The notes beneath the pieces are model-generated. The model saw nothing but the letters and a program-made list of their open reading frames with translations. It was not told the origin of the DNA and did no database searches. From NCBI GenBank assembly GCA_913056255.1, contig CAJXLN010000008.1, positions 1-64,000 of the forward strand: a stretch of DNA of 64,000 nt, read 5' to 3'. Below are positions 45,188-46,765 of this stretch, in pieces. The translations under genes were made by a program, and so were the position numbers. Source of the DNA: an uncultured Thermotogae bacterium (GTDB taxonomy: Bacteria > Thermotogota > Thermotogae > Mesoaciditogales > Mesoaciditogaceae). Numbering within the stretch: position 1 is the first letter of the stretch; each line of letters begins with the position of its first letter.

Positions 45188-46456
45188 CTACGCGTAAGCG
45201 TTCAAATCAAGTAAACCATGTCCACTGAAATTGAAAACTATTACTTTCTTCTCTCCAGTTTTGGTTGATTCTTTGGCATACCGAATCGCACCAGCAATTG
45301 CATGACTTGTCTCTGGTGCTGGTATAATTCCTTCCACAACACCAAAAAGTTTTGCGGCATCGAAAGCCTCTTTCTGATCAACAGCTATCGCTTTCACCAT
45401 TCCTTCGTGTACCAATCTACTGACTATTGGAGCTGCACCGTGATACCTCAATCCTCCTGCATGAATAGACGGAGGAACGAAATCTTTTCCCAATGTGTAC
45501 ATTTTTAACAGGGGAGTCAATCCTGCTGAATCGCCATAATCGTAGCGGTACTCTCCCTTTGTCAGAGATGGACACGCGACGGGTTCACAAGCAACTATTT
45601 CCAATTTGCTGTTTTTCAGTTTTTCAGGCATGAATGGAAGCATGAAACCACCAAAATTGGAACCACCACCAAAACATCCGATAAGAACATCTGGTTCTTC
45701 ACCAACTATATCCATTTGTTTTTTCGTTTCTTCGCCTATGATCGTTTGATGAAGCAAGACGTGATCAAGGACACTACCCAGAGAGTAATTAACATTGTCG
45801 GATTTGAAAGCGAATTCAACTGCCTCGCTTATCGCCATTCCGAGACTTCCAGTCGTGTTTGAATCTTGTTTTAGAAACATTTTTCCATTTTCCGTTAGAG
45901 AACTTGGACTCGGATGAATTTTGCCATCAAAAAAGTTAACCATGAATCTTCTGGCGGGCTTTTGTCCTAAGCTGACCTTTACCATGAAAACCTCCACACT
46001 CATGTCAAGAAGTCTGGTCGCGTATGCAAGGGCACTCCCCCATTGACCTGCCCCCGTTTCAGTTGAGAGATTGAAAACTCCGTCTTCCTTATTGAAATAA
46101 GCTTGAGCAATCGCCGTGTTAAGCTTGTGACTTCCCGTTGGACTGACAGATTCATTTTTGTAGTAAATATGGGCTGGTGTGTTGAGCGCACGTTCAAGTC
46201 CTACTGCGCGTACGAGAGGAGTTGGCCTGTAAATAGAATATGCTTCACGAACTTTTTTGGGAATGGGAATTTCCCTATCCAACGTCATTTCTTGTTCTAT
46301 CAACTGTTTGGGAAAAATCACGCTTAATTTTTCCGGTTCTATCGGTTTGTTTGTTTCTGGATCCAGTGGTGGATCGAGAGTAAATGGCAAATCAGCCTTA
46401 ACGTTGTACCAGTACTTCGGAATATCTTCACCTTTCAAATACACTCTTCTTTCCAT
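45188..46456 (-). CDS. trpB: Tryptophan synthase beta chain, TrpB2 type
   Basis: 422 residues from ATG 46456, which follows AGGAGG by 8 bases. The long N-terminus with [11 protein letters not shown] and [10 protein letters not shown], the PLP-lysine block [36 protein letters not shown] and the glycine-rich end NFSGHGLLD are features of TrpB2 rather than the TrpA-associated TrpB1. It condenses indole and serine to tryptophan. No trpA or other trp gene is adjacent. Expression is predicted to be governed by the Trp-codon leader peptide and attenuator immediately upstream, which supports a real role in tryptophan supply. Confidence 0.93.
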
Positions 46457-46479
46457 GAATACCACCTCCTATTTGATAT

Positions 46480-46518
46480 AAAAAAATACCGGAGATTCTT
46501 AAGAATCTCCGGTATTTT
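46480..46518 (-). terminator. Attenuator terminator (regions 3:4) of trpB2
   Basis: A perfect 36-base palindrome (46483-46518); on the minus strand it forms a long stem closed around TTCTTAAGAA and followed by a T-run (46480-46486). It sits 10-15 bases before the trpB2 Shine-Dalgarno. Its 5' arm contains the GCCAAAATACCGG segment that can pair instead with the antiterminator partner at 46559-46571. Confidence 0.9.
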
Positions 46519-46571
46519 GGCTTTTTAGCATCAATTAAAAAAACACGCGTCAAGTACGGCCAAAATACCGG
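46509..46571 (-). promoter_or_regulatory. Tryptophan antiterminator (regions 2:3)
   Basis: CCGGTATTTTGGC (minus strand, 46559-46571, inside the leader reading frame) is exactly complementary over 13 bases to GCCAAAATACCGG (46509-46521) in the terminator arm. The upstream segment around the Trp codons (GTACG...CC and ACGCGT) can pair with GGCCGTAC and ACGCGT, forming the 1:2 hairpin. The stop codon of the leader lies 7 bases beyond region 2, so a ribosome finishing the peptide would mask region 2 and allow termination. Confidence 0.88.
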
Positions 46572-46630
46572 TCGTACCACCACCACGCGTTGATTTCAGA
46601 AGATCTTCGGAATTCCATATTTTCTTTCAT
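46550..46630 (-). CDS. trpL: Tryptophan leader peptide
   Basis: 26 residues with three consecutive tryptophan codons (W16-W18, at 46577-46585) followed by YDRYFGRT and a stop. ATG 46630 is seven bases after GAGGAG; a second in-frame ATG lies at 46618. Stalling at the Trp codons when charged tRNA-Trp is scarce would free region 2 to form the antiterminator. The peptide is a sensor only; no other function is expected. Its Shine-Dalgarno begins one base after the tRNA-Val CCA end. Confidence 0.9.
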   Translation of the reverse strand: MKENMEFRRSSEINAWWWYDRYFGRT

Positions 46631-46643
46631 TTTCTATCTCCTC

Positions 46644-46718
46644 TGGTGAGTGCGGCAAGGATTGAACTTGCGACCTCTTCCGCGTCAAGGAAGCGCTCTC
46701 CCACTGAGCTACGCACTC
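46644..46718 (-). tRNA. tRNA-Val (anticodon GAC)
   Basis: 75 bases: acceptor GAGTGCG/CGCACTC, discriminator A and encoded CCA (46644-46646). The anticodon stem CTTCC/GGAAG encloses TTGACGC, giving GAC. The T-arm has GTTCAATCC. It has no terminator of its own; the RNA continues straight into the trp leader. Confidence 0.96.
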
Positions 46719-46735
46719 AACACCAAGTTAATGGC

Positions 46736-46765
46736 ATTATACCTTAAGTCTCTCATGCTTGTCAA
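46736..46765 (-). promoter_or_regulatory. Promoter of the tRNA-Val-trpL-trpB2 unit
   Basis: On the minus strand TTGACA (46760-46765), an 18-base spacer and TATAAT (46736-46741), both hexamers perfect matches to the consensus. Confidence 0.9.

Follow-up and report, generated by a model that had tools for sequence, protein, structure and literature searches.

Layout of the trpB2 locus

The window (the whole 64,000-nucleotide stretch of DNA analyzed here) carries a stand-alone trpB2 gene that is preceded by a short leader reading frame and an intrinsic terminator. Read along the minus strand from 46765, the order is a putative promoter, a tRNA-Val(GAC) gene, the leader ORF, the antiterminator, the terminator with its T-run, and trpB2. 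The individual features are:

46736..46765, minus strand: putative promoter of the sigma70 type (TTGACA-18-TATAAT), 5' of the tRNA gene (consensus match only, 12/12 positions)
46644..46718, minus strand: tRNA-Val(GAC) gene with encoded CCA, flanked by the promoter on one side and the leader on the other (ARAGORN; Rfam RF00005, 68 bits)
46638..46643, minus strand: leader Shine-Dalgarno (SD) GAGGAG, immediately 3' of the tRNA CCA (from the sequence)
46550..46630, minus strand: leader peptide ORF of 26 aa, MKENMEFRRSSEINAWWWYDRYFGRT (from the sequence; equivalents at 37/42 trpB2 loci)
46552-46550, minus strand: leader stop codon TGA (from the sequence)
46577..46585, minus strand: three tandem Trp codons, TGGTGGTGG (TGG TGG TGG), in frame at 36 trpB2 loci
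46542..46591, minus strand: protector hairpin 1:2, with the Trp codons inside it (leader MFE fold)
46559..46571, minus strand: antiterminator 5' strand (region 2), CCGGTATTTTGGC, inside the leader ORF (13-bp helix; both sides vary in relatives)
46509..46521, minus strand: antiterminator 3' strand (region 3), GCCAAAATACCGG, sharing 10 nt with the terminator 5' arm (pairing with region 2)
46483..46518, minus strand: intrinsic terminator, 16 bp with a loop of 4, a perfect 36-nt palindrome (T-run 46486-46480)
45188..46456, minus strand: trpB2, stand-alone tryptophan synthase beta of the TrpB2 family, 422 aa (model cut-offs)

The leader ORF and its Trp codons had been proposed in a sequence-only reading of this DNA, whose coordinates and counts are right to the base. 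The 13-base antiterminator helix that it described is present as an exact pairing (46571-46559 with 46521-46509), and so is the perfect 36-base terminator palindrome with its T-run (46518-46483). Its view that the element fits the enteric trp model holds in the window for 2:3 and the terminator, and for 1:2 as seen in the MFE fold, but not for the position of the stop codon, since region 2 here lies inside the ORF and upstream of the stop. It did not notice the tRNA-Val gene that seems to be cotranscribed from the upstream promoter, the absence of the other Trp pathway genes, or the apparent class-wide regulon. Because they overlap by 10 nt in the window, antiterminator and terminator are mutually exclusive. 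None of 200 shuffles was as stable as the leader RNA fold (z = -4.5) and none of 300 matched the strength of the window antiterminator. The bare TGGTGGTGG motif is not rare in the window (4 observed vs 0.22 expected in shuffles), and the case was therefore built on conservation. Of the three places in this genome where TGGTGGTGG is followed by TTTT, one, the trpB2 leader, has the shape of an attenuator as judged by reading; the same whole-genome pattern search found no other such element.

The trpB2 product exceeds the cut-offs of TIGR01415 (642 bits, cut-off 519) and NF009057 (680 bits, cut-off 366) and falls below that of the trpB model TIGR00263 (151 bits, cut-off 392), which assigns the gene to the TrpB2 family; the closest solved chains are those of tryptophan synthase beta.

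No promoter-like site was found in the gap between tRNA and leader, and a promoter-like site occurs at the same place as the window promoter in three related loci (L003, L004, L009). tRNA-Val, leader and trpB2 thus appear, by their arrangement, to lie on one transcript, and we infer a constant tRNA output with trpB2 as its regulated extension. The closest other sequence to tRNA-Val(GAC) in this genome is only 85% identical, so that this is probably its sole tRNA-Val(GAC). Among the nine trpB2-bearing members of the family Mesoaciditogaceae, the tRNA precedes the leader in five and is absent there in the other four, indicating that the attenuator does not need it; one genome (G005) has a 99% identical tRNA on a separate contig.

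Conservation of the leader and covariation of its arms

TrpB2 was detected in most of the 61 genomes searched. At 37 of the 42 trpB2 loci of the class with readable upstream DNA, an equivalent leader was found, carrying WWW in 36 cases, spread over eight families, and WYWW in one (L043), which represents a ninth family. Conservation of the Trp codons and complementary arms in relatives had been set beforehand as a test of the sequence-only reading; it was run here and did not refute that reading, an equivalent leader being present at 37/42 loci and the arms staying complementary across diverged sequences. The Thermotogae-like origin that it assigned to the DNA is also correct, the nearest named records being Mesoaciditogaceae. 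In every case a start codon stands in frame with the Trp run, and an SD is recognizable in most or nearly all leaders. Between families, the peptides have only the Trp run in common and their length 3' of the run varies widely. Counted from the first nucleotide of the Trp codons, the 5' strand of the antiterminator begins at a distance of 13-16 nt in most loci, a spacing compatible with how far a stalled ribosome would reach. In the window as in related loci an intrinsic terminator sits between leader ORF and gene. The five readable loci at which no leader was found are L010, L011, L012, L015 and L041; by genome, the trpB2 leader is missing from the Thermotoga-type genomes and G022. The first four of these loci belong to Thermotoga-type genomes that have kept the trp pathway.

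The arm sequences diverge between groups (e.g., CCGGTATTTTGGC, CCCTGATGCTGAA, CGGCAATTGTCC and GCCCCAATTCGGCG) with complementarity retained. Arms were aligned poorly by MAFFT across families, and we therefore used arm swaps instead of a single alignment. The mean duplex energy was -26.5 kcal/mol for arms paired with their own partners vs -12.8 for arms swapped between groups, and the observed duplex sum of 12 group representatives was reached by none of 100,000 permutations. Two-sided pair changes are seen within one family (U-A / U-G / C-G and A-U / G-C) and within a second (A-U / G-U / G-C and U-A / C-G). Within-family covariation, with six sequences each, exceeded the shuffles only mildly (18 and 27 of 500), so that the arm-swap test carries most weight. 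The simple terminator/helix finder missed four loci (L003, L016, L018, L020) that the arm-swap set contains, and the latter set misses L033. The antiterminator of the WYWW leader is a clear failure, having no support in either the helix search or the arm swaps.

A covariance model built without any sequence from families f1 or f3 still recovers several f1 and f3 leaders. The same model has matches in 49 of 103 class genomes, at least two of them by chance: on reading, one (L208) is a terminator 3' of a reductase-like gene and another (L210) lies inside a sugar-transporter-like operon. A search of eight genomes for TGGTGG plus a T-run was too noisy for use. Outside Thermotogota, a WW-type leader within 500 nt upstream was found at one of 45 trpB2 loci (L083). 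This locus is recorded as Tissierella, with gene content that looks actinobacterial; its trpB2 is preceded by a WWWLA leader and by a hairpin resembling a terminator, and the leader is perhaps convergent.

Folding and the proposed switch

Folding with a leader ribosome, a check that the sequence-only reading had put forward, was done for 23 loci of families f1, f2, f10 and f11. With the RNA masked through a ribosome at the first Trp codon and region 4 still unmade, the antiterminator forms in 22 of the 23 loci with 12-20 region 2:3 pairs (17 in the window); the corresponding number in L040 is 9. A ribosome at the stop codon was modeled by masking all RNA to 12 nt past the stop; the loss of 2:3 pairing in this fold follows from the masking itself, which removes region 2, and is not independent evidence. 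Folding of the full-length leader favors the terminator over the antiterminator, and deletion of region 1 does not change this. Since the terminator is favored once region 4 has been made, antitermination must be kinetic and decided before that point.

The following sequence of events is proposed. Transcription would start at the putative promoter upstream of tRNA-Val and run on into the leader. When Trp-tRNA is ample, the ribosome would clear the three Trp codons, reach the stop and cover region 2, leaving region 3 free for the terminator, and the transcript would end after tRNA and leader. When Trp-tRNA is scarce, the ribosome would stall at the Trp codons, holding the 1:2 hairpin open and exposing region 2; regions 2 and 3 would then pair before region 4 exists, and RNA polymerase would continue into trpB2. 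TrpB2 would join scavenged indole and serine, thereby refilling tryptophan. If the leader is untranslated, the 1:2 hairpin would form and termination would follow.

The geometry of the window, where the stop lies 33 nt past the start of the Trp run and region 2 occupies nucleotides 14-26, is such that a stop-codon ribosome of the usual footprint would cover most of region 2. The stop is 42-51 nt past the start of the run in families f3, f7 and f10, so that the ribosome there may sit downstream of, or clear, region 2; termination in these families may rest on ribosome release and re-forming of 1:2.

Seven T (46543-46537) follow the 1:2 hairpin, the two together spanning 46591-46537 in the window, and L002 and L003 are similar. 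Hairpin and T stretch could form a second, upstream terminator if the leader is untranslated.

Probable indole salvage, rival readings and known systems

In 29 of the 37 leader-bearing genomes, trpA, trpC and trpF are jointly missing, and 22 of these 29 are at least 95% complete; the TrpA, TrpC and TrpF models all match in 14/14 control genomes. All three genes are also missing from the genome of the window, which is 89% complete, so that the absence there leans on the relatives too. As this genome and most leader-bearing relatives are without the three genes, condensation of indole with serine is the most likely reaction, and TrpB2 in these genomes is best read as an enzyme that salvages indole to tryptophan. 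The leader is found mainly in species without the rest of the pathway, which suggests that the enzyme rescues tryptophan from scavenged indole under shortage.

Similar leaders precede other genes. WW or WWW leaders stand ahead of trp operons in seven genomes (G002, G003, G006, G008, G025, G027, G059) and also in G009, and less clearly in G012 and G060. In G047, which is without trpA, trpC and trpF, a WWW leader (L209, contig C2) precedes a lone TrpB1, whose TIGR00263 score is over the cut-off; this TrpB1 probably fills the same role with the other TrpB type. In G061, a WWW leader (L215, contig C87) is followed by a tandem pair of genes for TrpX-like substrate-binding proteins, together with a permease gene, the best NCBIfam match of the TrpX-like pair being NF041285 at 230 and 251 bits, below the cut-off of 390. 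The targets, namely TrpB2, trp operons and TrpX-like ABC transporter genes, belong to the pathway of the amino acid whose codon is repeated.

Taken together, we consider it highly probable (roughly 0.9) that trpB2 is under a ribosome-mediated, Trp-sensing transcription attenuator and that its product most likely serves indole salvage. The alternative that fares best accepts the attenuator and gives TrpB2 a main job other than making tryptophan from indole, such as serine deamination. The role of TrpB2 has been discussed as an open question and a serine deaminase role was once proposed, but the TrpB2 enzymes of T. maritima and S. solfataricus have poor serine deaminase activity (PMC1854888). 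The same kind of leader is common to trp operons and TrpX-like genes, which points to Trp supply, and a lone TrpB1 occupies the same place in G047. Moreover, the TrpB2 of Thermococcus kodakarensis reportedly salvages indole (Hiyama 2014, as cited in PMC11085991), a likeness to the reaction inferred here; T. kodakarensis differs in being an archaeon, and the cited passage names no leader, whereas the genomes here have leaders and are mostly without trpA, trpC and trpF. We therefore regard a non-indole role as unlikely.

An arrest peptide resembling TnaC, in which the nascent chain senses free tryptophan or another ligand rather than codon starvation, is a much weaker candidate. The peptide is Trp-rich and lies ahead of a Trp-related gene, and a GNCPPPL stretch recurs in the f10 leaders, polyproline being able to stall ribosomes. 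Against this, no residues beyond the Trp run are common between families, the length after the run varies, the GNCPPP codons double as pairing arms, and a synthase would not be expected to be induced when Trp is ample.

It is weaker still to suppose that the palindrome does no more than end tRNA-Val transcription and that the WWW ORF arose by accident. The tRNA gene is the immediate upstream neighbor and seems to be cotranscribed, and the palindrome would terminate it, but dozens of genomes keep leader, antiterminator and terminator without an upstream tRNA, and the covarying arms are contrary to a plain tRNA terminator; conservation largely refutes this reading. Control by a T-box, TRAP or riboswitch, the first two of which act on trp genes in Firmicutes (both mentioned in PMC3766115), is scarcely credible, given that at gathering score tRNA is the sole Rfam family in the window with none in 11 related loci, that the T-box model has no match in the window or those loci, and that the transcript holds only 9 (G/U)AG triplets, 5 of them in the tRNA, with no regular spacing.

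The attenuator that we prefer shares with E. coli trpL a short tandem-Trp leader ORF, a 2:3 antiterminator, a 3:4 terminator and a Trp biosynthetic gene as target, and in the window fold also a 1:2 protector. It differs in having three tandem Trp codons vs two, a single stand-alone trpB2 as target, a tRNA gene between promoter and leader in Mesoaciditogaceae, and the antiterminator 5' strand inside the leader ORF, whereas in E. coli that strand lies 3' of the leader stop. Rfam RF00513 (Trp_leader) has no match in the window at gathering score or E<=5, and none in 11 related loci. Actinobacterial trp attenuators likewise have double or triple Trp codons and terminator/antiterminator pairs, and include a second trpB among their targets (trpB1EDGC and trpB2A in C. 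diphtheriae; PMC1262725), the likeness of that trpB2 being by gene name. Their targets are operons with more trp genes, unlike the lone trpB2 here, and their arms, gGCC-rGCy-GGCC (PMC1262725), are not those of the trpB2 leaders. A 2010 paper added Firmicutes to Proteobacteria and Actinobacteria, the only groups from which it knew leader-peptide attenuation (PMC2965389). A survey of 2013 that used Rfam motifs, the Trp leader among them, suggested that attenuators of this sort arose in the gammaproteobacteria (PMC3766115). The mechanism is classical; the phylum, the target and the auxotroph context appear to be undescribed. No earlier description of a trpB2 attenuator was found in the literature searched; Lopatovskaya 2010, reportedly a comparative survey of bacterial attenuation, was outside that search and might list some.

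Across the phylum there appears to be a Trp regulon without Rfam match, comprising trpB2, trp operons, lone trpB1 and TrpX-like genes. On balance we lean toward a wider interpretation: an undescribed, Thermotogota-wide Trp attenuation regulon would have stand-alone trpB2 in pathway-less genomes as its most widespread member and TrpB2 as a starvation-induced indole-salvage synthase, tied in Mesoaciditogaceae to a tRNA-Val unit in which one strong promoter would yield the tRNA at all times and trpB2 only when Trp runs short. If true, this would fix the physiological role of TrpB2 as a starvation-induced indole-salvage tryptophan synthase and extend the range of leader-peptide attenuation beyond Proteobacteria, Actinobacteria and Firmicutes (cf. 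PMC2965389, PMC1262725). Retention of a Trp-sensing switch across a deep-branching phylum, mostly by pathway-less genomes, makes the open TrpB2 role directly testable, the prediction being growth on indole only via trpB2.

Two further leaders were seen in G012. An attenuator-shaped WWW leader (L206, contig C43) precedes genes for a TIGR04076/ferredoxin protein, a second ferredoxin and an aldehyde:ferredoxin oxidoreductase, which, speculatively, could possibly make tryptophan from indole acids. An attenuator-like leader with M-I-M-C instead of a Trp run (L207, contig C72) stands ahead of a homocysteine biosynthesis gene (PF01837) and may be an attenuator built in the same way for methionine/cysteine.
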